Below are positions 44,320 to 48,800 of a stretch of DNA of 64,000 nucleotides, piece after piece (the first letter of the stretch is position 1; every line of letters starts with the position of its first letter). Origin of the DNA: Candidatus Hecatella orcuttiae (GTDB lineage: Archaea > Thermoproteota > Bathyarchaeia > Hecatellales > Hecatellaceae). Under the pieces are notes generated by a model. That model saw nothing but the letters and a program-made list of their open reading frames with translations, was not told the DNA's origin and did no database searches. The stretch lies in assembly GCA_002011035.2 (NCBI GenBank), contig MTLY02000003.1, positions 427,194 to 491,193 on the forward strand. The letters run 5' to 3'. The position numbers were made by a program, and so were the translations under genes.

Positions 44320-44631
44320 GTGTTTTCCAGCGCCTTTAAGCGTACACTTTGGTGGATGATAGCCGGAACGAGGGGAGGGGTAACCCGGGGAAAAATAATC
44401 CTCGCCTTGAAGGAGAGGCCTTTGAACGCCAATCAGCTGGCTGAGCTTCTTCAACTACACTACAGGGCTATCCGCTTCCATCTGGAACTGCTGGTTGACA
44501 ACAACATCCTCACCAATGCTGGGGGTAAATACGGGGCGGTTTATTTTCTTTCCCCAGAGATTGAGTCAAACTGGGAGCTCTTCAAGGAAATATGGAATCG
44601 CCTCCAAAGGATAGATAAAAAGAAAGGGTGA
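44320..44631 (+). CDS. ArsR-like winged-helix transcriptional regulator
   Basis: LKERPLNANQLAELLQLHYRAIRFHLELLVDNNIL. Confidence 0.75.
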   Translation: MFSSAFKRTLWWMIAGTRGGVTRGKIILALKERPLNANQLAELLQLHYRAIRFHLELLVDNNILTNAGGKYGAVYFLSPEIESNWELFKEIWNRLQRIDKKKG

Positions 44632-44666
44632 ATCAACGTATAAGACATCAGGAAGGTTGAACAGAT

Positions 44667-44918
44667 ATGACTTTAGAGAGTGGTGTGCATATAGTTTCTC
44701 ATATTGTTCAAATAACCATCACCCTGATAATTATCTACTATTTCATTCAAAATTATAGGGCCATAAGGTCAAGGTTTAACTTAGGTCTCATTCTCTTCGC
44801 CGTGGCCATGTTGTTTCAGATTGTTTTCGCTTGGTCTTTGCACATCCCTCTCCATCTTCTGTCGGAAACGTTTGAGATAGCGGCGCTTTTGATCTTTTTA
44901 AGCCTTATAAGACGGTGA
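44667..44918 (+). CDS. Small membrane protein (about 3 TM)
   Basis: Hydrophobic segments throughout an 83-aa ORF directly downstream of the wHTH gene. Confidence 0.6.
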   Translation: MTLESGVHIVSHIVQITITLIIIYYFIQNYRAIRSRFNLGLILFAVAMLFQIVFAWSLHIPLHLLSETFEIAALLIFLSLIRR

Positions 44919-44949
44919 AAACGCCTTCCCATCAGGTCAGCGTGTATAT

Positions 44950-45028
44950 GTCTATATAGTTAAAATATTGTATAGACGTAAAAGCTAAATATCTTGAATT
45001 TATAATTAATTTGTAACAAATTTATAAT
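44950..45028 (+). promoter_or_regulatory. Putative promoter/operator region of the CuA operon
   Basis: GTCTATA-N14-TATAGAC (44950-44977); AATTTGT-A-ACAAATT (45008-45022); AATTTATAAT at 44997 and 45019. Confidence 0.55.
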
Positions 45029-45041
45029 AGATGGATGACAT

Positions 45042-45896
45042 TTGAGCGACAGCCCTGCGGAAATACCTCCCGCCTCCGAAACAGCAAAACCTTCCCCGCT
45101 TAGGATGATGGCAGAAGCCTTAAAGCTACATCGCCAAGGGAAGCCTTTGGCTAAGGATGATGTAATCTCCCTCTTCTTCTCGATGGCTGATTATGTGCAC
45201 AAAGCTTGGAAGGCAGGCCTCAGTAAAAGAAGCGAATGCGCCTATGCAGGTTCTCTGCTTCTCTACGAGACGCTGAAAAGGACAGGCTTCCGATTTGCCT
45301 CCGACGTGGAGGATGCCAATCGAATCTGGAAAGCTGGAATGAAGCTGGCGGAGGAAATTTGGAACAAGCTTGAATCTTCCAGGAATAACCCGCTCTCGGG
45401 TGAAGGTCTGAGCTTTAAGGAGGAAATCCAAGCCATGTCCTCTCTACTCTGGGAGGAATACCAAAAGGTAGCTAACCCTCCTGCAGGTCAAGTGGAAGGA
45501 AAAGGATTGACTGAAGTTTTCAGAAAGGCGGTTGAATACGTCGAAGCTGGAAAAAAGGAGGGGCTTCAAGAACATCAGATCCAGATGCAGTTACCTGAGT
45601 TTAGACATGGACGATTCCGCGTAAACAGAGTTTACAGTTTCGACCCTCTTATCCTGGGAATGCATCTGAACGATGAGGCAAGACTCAGGTTTAATCCAAA
45701 GGTCAAAAAAACCGTGGAGGATTTCGCAGCTAGGCGGGGTTTAAGGTTTCAACCCTCAAGCTTTGACATCTACCTTCTCAAGGGAGAGAAGAAGGTGGCT
45801 TGGCTTAGGGAGGATTTCTTTGGGGCGTCAACCCCGGAGCTTTTTGAGGAGATAGGCCGCATAATCTACGGCTCAGCCCTCAGGGATGATGAATGA
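45042..45896 (+). CDS. Uncharacterised 284-aa protein, first gene of the CuA/polyferredoxin operon (TTG start)
   Basis: Full-length ORF with a 4-nt overlap with the cupredoxin-polyferredoxin gene; no family recognised. Confidence 0.75.
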   Translation: MSDSPAEIPPASETAKPSPLRMMAEALKLHRQGKPLAKDDVISLFFSMADYVHKAWKAGLSKRSECAYAGSLLLYETLKRTGFRFASDVEDANRIWKAGMKLAEEIWNKLESSRNNPLSGEGLSFKEEIQAMSSLLWEEYQKVANPPAGQVEGKGLTEVFRKAVEYVEAGKKEGLQEHQIQMQLPEFRHGRFRVNRVYSFDPLILGMHLNDEARLRFNPKVKKTVEDFAARRGLRFQPSSFDIYLLKGEKKVAWLREDFFGASTPELFEEIGRIIYGSALRDDE

Positions 45897-47866
45897 AGAA
45901 AAATCATCTGCTGTCCGTCGCCGTAATCGTCATCGCCTTGGTTATTCTTGGTTACGCCCTACCGGTAACAGGGCGGATGAGCGAAATAATCCTAACAGTC
46001 GAAGAAGAATCCGGCCGGCTGGCTGAAGCTGATTCTTCACCCAAGATCATAGAGATCACCGCGAAAAGGTTCACCTTCGAACCCAACATCATTCACGTAA
46101 AGCTGGGAGAGGAGGTAATCTTCAGGATAAAGAGCGCGGATGTCACCCACGGATTCTACATCGACGGCTACGATTACTTCGTAACCATCCCCCCGGGAGA
46201 AGTCGTGGATGTGGGGCCGATAATTTTCGACGGACCGGGTAAATTGAAGATAAGATGCGCGATAACGTGCGGGCCTCTGCATCCATTCATGGTTGCGGAC
46301 ATACTCGTGGAGCCCAATTATGTTTTCCCAGCCTTCATCTTCTTAACGTTAGGCATGTTCGGGGCCACCACTCTCTACATCAGCCGAGGGCCCAGTAACC
46401 GAATGCTGGGAGTTCCCCTTGACAAGGATGTTGACTTGCTGAGGGTTAAGATCGTAGGGCCTATTTTGAAGAAGATTCTCCAATGGAGGGGTATCCACTT
46501 TGCACTCATCTGGCCAAACCTTCTGATCTTTATGATCGTCTTAACAACAGCATTCTTCGGTAATCCAACAGGAAACAAGAACTTCTCCATAGCGGTAGTC
46601 TGGATACTTTGGTTTGCCGCTGTTGAATTTATGATACTCTTTGCTGGAAGACTATGGTGCACTGTCTGTCCTCTACCGGCTTTCGGAGAATGGCTTGCAA
46701 GAAGAAGACTTTACGGTGTTCACAGTCTGAGAAAGTGGCTGTCTTTGGGAAAAAAGTGGCCTAAAAGCTTGAACAACATGTGGATACCGGCCTTCGGTTT
46801 CTTAGGAATATCTCTCATCGTTCCTTGGCTTGTCACAAGACCCGTAGTGACCGGGTTTTTGTTCCTCATACTTATAGTGCTCCCTTTGATTCTACATCCA
46901 ATTTTTACCCGGAGATATTTCTGTCGCTCTGTCTGTCCGGCGGGCGGATACATAGGCCATCATTCTAACGCTTCGATCCTCGCTATTAGATGCCGGAATA
47001 AAACTGTCTGCGATAAGCATGTGGCTAAAGAGTGTATCGGTGGAAGTCCCAAAGGCTACGGTTGCCCTTGGGTGCTCTATCCGGGTGGCAACGACCAGAA
47101 CACCTACTGCGGTCAGTGTTTTGAATGCCTCAAATCTTGTCCCTTAGACAATATGACGCTGAAGCTGAGGATGATAGGCCAAGACCTAGCTAACCTAGCA
47201 ACCAAAGCCAAGGACAAGTTTGATGAGGCGTGGATGGATTTCATCAGATTTACCTTGGTCATCACTTACCAGCTGGTCTTTTTCGGCCCCTACTTCTGGT
47301 TTAAAGACTGGGGTAACATGGGGAATATCTTCGGAGCTAACCTGGCCACCATAGGACTTCTCACACCTTCTTTCCAAGGACTGAGCAACTGGTTCGGATG
47401 GGCGGTGATAGTGGGTGGCACTGCATTAGTAGGCTATCCTGCCCTGTTCTACGCCTTCTCTTGGCTGGCGAAGAAGACTGCCGGCGATGTTGAACACGCA
47501 CCTAAACAAGTCTTCCTCTCTTTCAGCTACGCCTTGACTCCCTACAGCCTGTTCCTTTGGCTGGCATTCGCCATCACCCTCGTAACCGTTAACTGGGCAT
47601 ATCCCCTAACGGCTTTTTCCGATCCTCTGGGGTGGGGTTGGAATCTGCTGGGAACCCGGTTTGCATGGAGACCAATCCTTCCGGATTTTCTGCCCTACTT
47701 CCAGCTACCGATTGTTCTTGTAGGGCTAGCTTTGGCGGTGAACAGCACCTACAACATCGCTGTGAGACTCTTCGGCGACCACGCTAAGGCTCTGAGAGCA
47801 TCAACGGTCATGGGTGTTTTGCACACCCTTGCCGCCTTGGTTTTCATCTGGATTATATCGGGGTGA
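45893..47866 (+). CDS. CuA-type cupredoxin domain fused to NapH/NosR-like membrane 4Fe-4S polyferredoxin
   Basis: KIRCAITCGPLHPFM (C-x3-C-x3-H-x2-M CuA ligand set); LWCTVCPLPAFGEW; YFCRSVCPAGG; YCGQCFECLKSCP; multiple TM helices. Confidence 0.85.
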   Translation: MKKNHLLSVAVIVIALVILGYALPVTGRMSEIILTVEEESGRLAEADSSPKIIEITAKRFTFEPNIIHVKLGEEVIFRIKSADVTHGFYIDGYDYFVTIPPGEVVDVGPIIFDGPGKLKIRCAITCGPLHPFMVADILVEPNYVFPAFIFLTLGMFGATTLYISRGPSNRMLGVPLDKDVDLLRVKIVGPILKKILQWRGIHFALIWPNLLIFMIVLTTAFFGNPTGNKNFSIAVVWILWFAAVEFMILFAGRLWCTVCPLPAFGEWLARRRLYGVHSLRKWLSLGKKWPKSLNNMWIPAFGFLGISLIVPWLVTRPVVTGFLFLILIVLPLILHPIFTRRYFCRSVCPAGGYIGHHSNASILAIRCRNKTVCDKHVAKECIGGSPKGYGCPWVLYPGGNDQNTYCGQCFECLKSCPLDNMTLKLRMIGQDLANLATKAKDKFDEAWMDFIRFTLVITYQLVFFGPYFWFKDWGNMGNIFGANLATIGLLTPSFQGLSNWFGWAVIVGGTALVGYPALFYAFSWLAKKTAGDVEHAPKQVFLSFSYALTPYSLFLWLAFAITLVTVNWAYPLTAFSDPLGWGWNLLGTRFAWRPILPDFLPYFQLPIVLVGLALAVNSTYNIAVRLFGDHAKALRASTVMGVLHTLAALVFIWIISG

Positions 47867-48270
47867 ATGAAGTGATGAAGAAAACTGTACTGTTGTGGGA
47901 AAGCATTGCATTGCTCTTGGTAGTCGTCGCTGTGGCCGCGTTTTTCCTTCCTTTGGCAGATGGGATTTTCATGCCGAGGGAGCCGGACGAGATTGTGGTA
48001 AGGATGAGCATCAAGGAAAGCGGAGGCTTCGACCCCGAAGTCATAACCGTGAAGAAAGGGCAGACTGTCCGGTTGGTCCTCATAAGCATGGATGTTTCCC
48101 ACGGCTTCACTGTCGAAGGCCTTGACATCGACGTGAAGATTGTTAATCCGGAAAAGAAGGTGGTGGTGGAGTTCACACCTGAGGAAGAGGGAGTCTACAT
48201 GTTTAAATGTACAGTTCAATGCAGCCCCCTCCACCACTACATGAGGGGACTGTTCATAGTGGAGGGTTAG
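47863..48270 (+). CDS. Membrane-anchored CuA-type cupredoxin (COX2-like)
   Basis: N-terminal TM; SHGFTVEGLDIDVKI; MFKCTVQCSPLHHYMRG (C-x3-C-x3-H-x2-M). Confidence 0.88.
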   Translation: MNEVMKKTVLLWESIALLLVVVAVAAFFLPLADGIFMPREPDEIVVRMSIKESGGFDPEVITVKKGQTVRLVLISMDVSHGFTVEGLDIDVKIVNPEKKVVVEFTPEEEGVYMFKCTVQCSPLHHYMRGLFIVEG

Positions 48271-48272
48271 AG

Positions 48273-48800
48273 ATGAAAAACAGCGTCTTAGCTCGGTTGT
48301 TGAAATTTCCGCCTTTGGTTTTCTTTCTTCTCCTGATCCTAAGCTTCACCGCCTTCCAAGGATACGTTTCACTTGTAGGAGTGGGGGAAGCGGAAGAGTT
48401 TCCACACATGGAACCGATAGTCACGACGGATAGCGAAACCTATTCCAGAGACTCTTTTGTGTACATCCACGTCAAGGTCAGTACGCATCCTCATGAGCAT
48501 GTCCATGAGGAGGAGGCTGTGGTAGAGGAGCATGTCCATGAGGAGGAGGCTGTGGTAGAGGAGCATGTCCATGAGGAGGAGGCTGTTTTTGAAGGAGCTG
48601 AAGTTATCCTCATCATCTACGACCCAGAAGGTAACGTGTTTGCAGACCTGAGAGGAATAACCAATCAAGATGGAGAGATGATGTTTGAGGTTTACATAGG
48701 AGCTGATGACCCGACCGGCATCTACACTATCATCCCTGAAGCCAGCTTCAAAGGCTCACCTATCGTGATAGGGGAAACAGCCTATTTTAGAGTGACTTGA
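48273..48800 (+). CDS. Exported/anchored protein with His/Glu-rich tandem repeats and Ig-like domain
   Basis: Signal-like N-terminus MKNSVLARLLKFPPLVFFLLLILSFTAF; HPHEHVHEEEAVVEEHVHEEEAVVEEHVHEEEAV; ATG at 48273 preferred over the track start. Confidence 0.75.
   Translation: MKNSVLARLLKFPPLVFFLLLILSFTAFQGYVSLVGVGEAEEFPHMEPIVTTDSETYSRDSFVYIHVKVSTHPHEHVHEEEAVVEEHVHEEEAVVEEHVHEEEAVFEGAEVILIIYDPEGNVFADLRGITNQDGEMMFEVYIGADDPTGIYTIIPEASFKGSPIVIGETAYFRVT
48498..48596 (+). repeat. Three in-frame tandem copies of a 33-nt unit encoding HVHEEEAVVEE
   Basis: catgtccatgaggaggaggctgtggtagaggag at 48498 and 48531 (identical), third copy at 48564 diverging at its 3' end. Confidence 0.97.

Follow-up and report, generated by a model that had tools for sequence, protein, structure and literature searches.

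A CuA cupredoxin-polyferredoxin fusion operon of Candidatus Hecatella orcuttiae, probably a membrane electron conduit and a variant of a known module

We describe a four-gene operon, at positions 45042-48800 on the forward strand of a 64,000-nt stretch of DNA (the window; contig MTLY02000003.1) from the archaeon Candidatus Hecatella orcuttiae, which encodes a 284-aa protein, a fusion of a CuA cupredoxin with a NapH-like polyferredoxin, another CuA cupredoxin with its own anchor, and an exported His/Glu-repeat protein (Table 1). The first and second genes overlap by 4 bp, as do the second and third, and every open reading frame (ORF) of the operon was found at the coordinates and on the strand given in the initial annotation of this DNA. 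The genome, hereafter G000, is 97% complete with 4.25% contamination and was surveyed by searches and by selected stretches. We consider that the operon probably forms a membrane conduit, passing electrons from menaquinol through Fe-S clusters and CuA to an extracytoplasmic acceptor encoded elsewhere, of the NapH or 'HCOII-NapH-HCOII' kind. Menaquinol, or another donor on the cytoplasmic side, would reduce two cytoplasmic [4Fe-4S] clusters of the polyferredoxin, which has nine transmembrane (TM) helices; these clusters would reduce the fused extracytoplasmic CuA domain, and this in turn the second, separately anchored CuA protein, from which electrons would pass to an acceptor that is plausibly a nitrogen-oxide reductase. 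The CuA ligand sets, Fe-S cysteines, topology, conserved gene order and kinship used in this reading are based on sequence; we infer the role of quinol as donor, which way the electrons flow and what accepts them.

Both cupredoxins have complete sets of predicted copper ligands in a cupredoxin fold, with an upstream CuA histidine (DVTHGF / DVSHGF) and the pattern C-x3-C-x3-H-x2-M. This pattern had already been noted in both proteins; in the window's ORFs of at least 60 aa, which over six frames amount to approximately 51,500 residues, it indeed occurs exactly twice, once in each protein. The best solved relative of both is the Thermus ba3 oxidase subunit II (phmmer E values of 3e-15 for the fusion and 5e-9 for the second cupredoxin). 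When the structure predicted for the fusion (pLDDT 85.5) was compared using Foldseek, the best-ranking Thermus CuA matches mostly had a root-mean-square deviation of 1.2-2.0 Å and 36-39% identity; nearly all of its best 50 structural matches were CuA or other cupredoxin-type domains, and none of these 50 convincingly covered the polyferredoxin membrane part. The second cupredoxin also matches the CuA domain of NosZ at 56.8 bits; the CuA part matches alone, not the seven-bladed propeller. No COX1 is encoded in the window to make either protein a heme-copper oxidase subunit II, and the earlier observation that the window holds neither an oxidase nor NosZ stands.

The membrane part of the polyferredoxin has 11 cysteines, each with 94-100% conservation across 50 homologs, which come from many phyla. 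Cys406-409-412-416 together with Cys373/381/391 are the predicted ligands of the two cytoplasmic [4Fe-4S] clusters. No histidine is conserved among the 50 homologs; heme b is therefore unlikely, and we rejected it. Lysine and arginine residues number 8, 8 and 15 in three long cytoplasmic loops versus 1, 1, 1 and 2 in the inter-helix outer loops, which by the positive-inside rule predicts that the cupredoxin lies outside the membrane and the Fe-S domain on the cytoplasmic side, although the helix boundaries were taken from an AlphaFold2 (AF2) model, so that the count checks consistency and does not predict the topology independently. As CuA would lie outside and the NapH-like Fe-S domain inside, electron transfer between copper and membrane Fe-S clusters is the natural reading, and both architecture and predicted topology support the electron-transfer system that the initial annotation had proposed. 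The protein resembles NapH of periplasmic nitrate reductase in its two C-x2-3-C-P motifs and ferredoxin-type cysteines; however, it has nine TM helices rather than four, it scores 29.5 bits with the NapH model (TIGR02163) against a cut-off of 213.05, and neither NapG nor NapAB was seen beside the window copy. The N-terminal FMN-binding domain of NosR was absent from the Pfam/NCBIfam results, as was any match to the CcoG/FixG family with its C-terminal Ig-like domain.

The locus had been put forward as undescribed, yet a unit of NapH with two COX2-like proteins was published in 2015 for Methanoperedens and Archaeoglobus fulgidus (PMC4683180, PMC4543118). The Methanoperedens operon reads NarG-NarH-NarJ-Orf7-HCOII-NapH-HCOII, with a C-terminal extension of NapH to nine TM helices, and the unit was suggested to be part of a membrane-bound nitrate-reducing complex (PMC4683180). 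In A. fulgidus, AF0141-AF0144 comprise a gene for a NapH homologue with a COX2-like gene on either side and are upregulated on CO plus sulfate; AF0143-AF0144 are conserved in A. sulfaticallidus and Ferroglobus placidus, adjoining nosZ in the latter (PMC4543118). By its sequence, the operon studied here is a fused variant of this module, having a polyferredoxin of about nine TM helices and two COX2-like cupredoxins, the first of them fused. It differs from AF0141-AF0144 in this fusion and in its 284-aa and His/Glu proteins, whereas the Methanoperedens unit, which shares the three-protein make-up and the nine-TM NapH, is unfused, linked to NarGHJ and placed in another clade. Among the locus stretches compared (L numbers), L151, which we take to come from A. 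fulgidus, has a polyferredoxin that shares 46% identity with the window fusion and falls in the same clade (100/100), in line with kinship to AF0143. In literature lying mostly outside subscription journals, we found no description of a fused form accompanied by the 284-aa and His/Glu proteins, of the breadth of partner enzymes or of the ATPase association considered below.

The cassette is spread over Archaea, Chloroflexota, Acidobacteriota, Planctomycetota and others, where it stands beside NarG/NxrA, NosZ, CuA-cytochrome-d1 or DMSO-reductase-II (DMSOR-II) enzymes, or alone. NarG/NxrA-type enzymes adjoin it in L049, L072 (Methanoperedens) and L033 (an Omnitrophota metagenome-assembled genome), and full-length NosZ, above the NosZ cut-off in both cases, in L040 and L150. 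The latter, presumably F. placidus, shares with the window a polyferredoxin and a CuA cupredoxin, carried beside NosZ-NosL-NosD-NosF-NosY-like genes, but belongs to a different clade. In another family of the phylum to which the window belongs (genome G369), a CuA cupredoxin is fused N-terminally to a cytochrome-d1 propeller (L121:1442-3211; PF02239 at 331.9 bits) in an operon with a window-like fused polyferredoxin; the nearest solved relative of this protein is 6rtd (entered as cytochrome c), NirF and cd1 nitrite reductases come next, and its reaction is therefore uncertain. DMSOR-II enzymes lie beside the module in the Archaeoglobi stretches L017, L146 and L148. That homologs adjoin terminal reductases of these types, among them a NarGH/NxrAB-type complex in G000 itself, supports the conduit reading. 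If the module served extracytoplasmic reductases in general as a bc1-free electron donor, archaeal and bacterial nitrogen-oxide respiration would share an electron-supply module open to testing. Gene order is also conserved in relatives, a point that the initial annotation had left to be checked; for example, the N-terminal helical domain of the 284-aa protein (approximately residues 19-144) accompanies the fused polyferredoxin in L121, L141, L142 and L143. Separately, an arsenite-oxidase-type and a QrcB-like enzyme were observed upstream of the module in L034 and L025.

Several observations weigh against a conduit. The window copy has no catalytic subunit next to it, and searches of G000 turned up no acceptor obviously lacking a donor. 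A NarGH/NxrAB-type operon on another contig (C2) has a cassette of its own, consisting of a cupredoxin, a 486-aa polyferredoxin (44% identical to that of the window) and a cupredoxin. These are followed by a 160-aa protein, a catalytic subunit with a Tat signal, an Fe-S subunit and a chaperone of the TorD type, an operon context shared with Methanoperedens; the NarGH/NxrAB-type complex itself is at L007:5980-11210. Its catalytic subunit matches Kuenenia NxrA over the full length (1133 bits) and is 47% identical to Methanoperedens NarG, a pattern from which nitrate reduction and nitrite oxidation cannot be told apart. The single COX1 of G000 (C2:55013-56476; the oxidase is at L008:9522-11588) likewise has its own subunit II, without CuA cysteines (STEYSGPYHPHM), and we thus rejected the window cupredoxins as the subunit II of this oxidase. 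Aligned to ba3 oxidases, this COX1 appears to have Asp opposite both the first CuB histidine and the cross-linked tyrosine; since replacement of one CuB histidine by Asp is reported for some nitric oxide (NO) reductases (PMC3475470), the oxidase looks NO-reductase-like. Searches of G000 found no cytochrome d1, NirK or full-length NosZ, and we rejected accordingly both a NosZ accessory role in this genome and, following the example of G369, a partnership with cytochrome d1 or NirK. The initial annotation had named a complete oxidase or nos operon elsewhere, served by this locus, as grounds against its proposal; half of this was borne out, in that a heme-copper oxidase does exist elsewhere, but it has its own subunit II and an active site that looks NO-reductase-like, and the genome gave no full-length NosZ. 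Furthermore, the crossing of the membrane from the cytoplasmic clusters to the outer CuA lacks an explanation, and L017, L146 and L148 retain both cupredoxin genes having lost the CuA cysteine ligands in both, so that the cupredoxins can have another role.

A more specific form of the conduit reading, in which the window operon is a second, redundant donor to the NarGH/NxrAB-type complex or the NO-reductase-like oxidase and thus an accessory of nitrogen-oxide respiration, is possible but doubtful. G000 does have both catalytic systems, the paralogous C2 cassette and an oxidase subunit II devoid of CuA cysteines, all of which fit such a donor; however, the NarGH/NxrAB operon already contains its own cassette, and the window copy belongs to a different clade. 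The direction of flow has itself been proposed to be the opposite, AF0141-AF0144 being viewed as a menaquinone-linked respiratory complex that passes electrons from reduced ferredoxin to menaquinone, on the basis of transcript data from growth on CO and sulfate (PMC4543118). Ferredoxin would then donate to the Fe-S domain, which the model places in the cytoplasm, but such reversed flow leaves two conserved CuA domains and the recurrent placement beside extracytoplasmic reductases unaccounted for, and we regard it as improbable.

The initial annotation had alternatively suggested a role in copper or redox stress, for which the synteny of Archaeoglobi, rather than that of G000, offers some support. 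The freestanding fused clade might tentatively be a copper-redox module, whose Fe-S clusters and CuA would reduce Cu(II) or copper-binding partners such as the His/Glu protein, the Cu(I) then being pumped or inserted. In function this would resemble bacterial CcoG, a cupric reductase of the polyferredoxin type whose gene belongs to the ccoGHIS cluster (PMC7558416). The window protein is likewise a membrane polyferredoxin with some relatives near metal ATPases, but it differs by its CuA domain and extra TM helices, and CcoG models remain unmatched. Among Archaeoglobi, six freestanding loci are on contigs of sufficient length; four of them have a heavy-metal P-type ATPase within 5 kb, and a fifth has one at about 8 kb. 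The probability of such proximity by chance is about 4e-6 if the loci are independent and about 7e-5 if they are collapsed to four lineages, assuming 2-4 such genes per genome, but these figures are indications, as the distance was chosen after the data were seen and shared ancestry within lineages is ignored. The pump of L151 is of the copper type, that of L149 has the same CPH motif, and that of L144 has two N-terminal CxxC motifs and CPC, L144 also encoding Met-rich and YHS-like proteins; the His/acidic-rich insert in the product of the fourth gene fits as well. On the other hand, the three heavy-metal ATPases of G000 are all on a contig other than that of the window, the ATPase adjoining the closest sister (L141) scores as Cd/Zn rather than Cu type, L142, the next closest, has none in the stretch read, and the ATPases could simply provide copper for the CuA sites. 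The fuller proposal, that this clade is an archaeal copper-redox machine, in which menaquinol-driven and CuA-mediated extracytoplasmic copper reduction is coupled to metal pumps and the His/Glu metal-binding protein, and which evolved from a NapH-like donor of respiration and has moved between phyla of Archaea, is less probable still and, we think, unlikely.

As for the history of the operon, the window copy groups with L141 (99/96) and then with L142/L143 (97/91), inside an archaeal clade of 13 rows (100/100) that also holds L121; the C2 copy falls elsewhere in the tree. No fusion protein was found at E<=1e-20 in 79 other genomes of relatives. In the sample of the phylum, 14 of 400 genomes including G000 gave a match, many of these being distant NapH-like proteins, and in the class of Archaeoglobus JdFR-41 there were matches in 12 of 59, at up to 71% identity. 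Since the sister copy is from Archaeoglobi (71% identical) and none of the 79 sampled relatives has the fusion, gene transfer between Archaeoglobi and the lineage of the window is likely on these sequence comparisons; the tree was midpoint-rooted for drawing and does not establish the direction. The cupredoxin fusion requires six label changes on the tree, indicating that it arose or was lost several times. The absence of a partner gene and the existence of relatives already without CuA ligands might also suggest a relic, a respiratory module degenerating after its catalytic subunit was lost following lateral transfer. However, the CuA and Fe-S ligands of the window are all intact, the frames are all open and the sister Archaeoglobi copy stands alone too, which makes a relic very improbable.

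Table 1. Positions of the operon genes, their metal-ligand motifs and the adjoining upstream genes in the window
Feature	Position	Strand	Support
ArsR-type winged-helix (wHTH) regulator, likely local	44320..44631	+	HTH_5 23.9 bits, above cut-off
83-aa small membrane protein, partner of the wHTH	44667..44918	+	ORF; weakly alignable to 93-aa proteins of L141/L142
284-aa protein, family unknown	45042..45896	+	ORF; alignments
657-aa fusion: N-terminal anchor, CuA cupredoxin (~residues 51-140), TM helix, nine-TM NapH-like polyferredoxin	45893..47866	+	
CuA ligand loop of the fusion, CAITCGPLHPFM	46256..46291	+	
C-x2-C (Cys256, Cys259), cytoplasmic membrane edge	46658..46669	+	100% conserved, 50 homologs
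C-x3-C (Cys344, Cys348)	46922..46936	+	100% conserved, 50 homologs
C-x2-C-x2-C-x3-C (Cys406-409-412-416)	47108..47140	+	94-98% conserved, 50 homologs
135-aa anchored CuA cupredoxin	47863..48270	+	Cupredoxin_1 42.8 bits, COX2 27.2 bits, both above cut-off
CuA ligand loop of the second cupredoxin, CTVQCSPLHHYM	48208..48243	+	
175-aa exported, membrane-anchored His/Glu protein	48273..48800	+	Weakly MG2-like domain with His/Glu-rich insert
Perfect tandem repeat, 33 bp, 2.8 copies, encoding the His/Glu repeats	48495..48586	+	

The true start of the 284-aa protein may be at about 45105, given that its homologs begin near Met22/23. In L017 its N-terminal domain forms one protein with a cytochrome-b-like part, whilst its C-terminal half had no match; the AF2 model is confident in the N-terminal half only. 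We rejected a TorD/NarJ-type chaperone, as the protein matched no Pfam/NCBIfam family and this low-confidence model no PDB fold at E<=0.001. The His/Glu protein most likely starts at the ATG at 48273, which lies 2 bp past the stop codon of the cupredoxin gene and keeps register with the homologs (L142, L143, L017, L146 and L148), 48207 being merely the first mechanical start; its MG2 match (E=0.01) is below the cut-off. In L142 and L143 a further small exported protein with a cupredoxin-like look is encoded downstream of the operon (L142:7087-7542, with a lipoprotein-type start, and L143:3754-4188).

Pairs of a wHTH and a membrane protein of about 90 aa adjoin several redox operons (44320-44918 in the window, L141:7003-7632, L142:12285-12920 and L116:8893-9537). 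Those flanking the Archaeoglobi operons L141 and L142 have low similarity to the window pair (18-33%), and a common origin of the pairs is therefore not shown.

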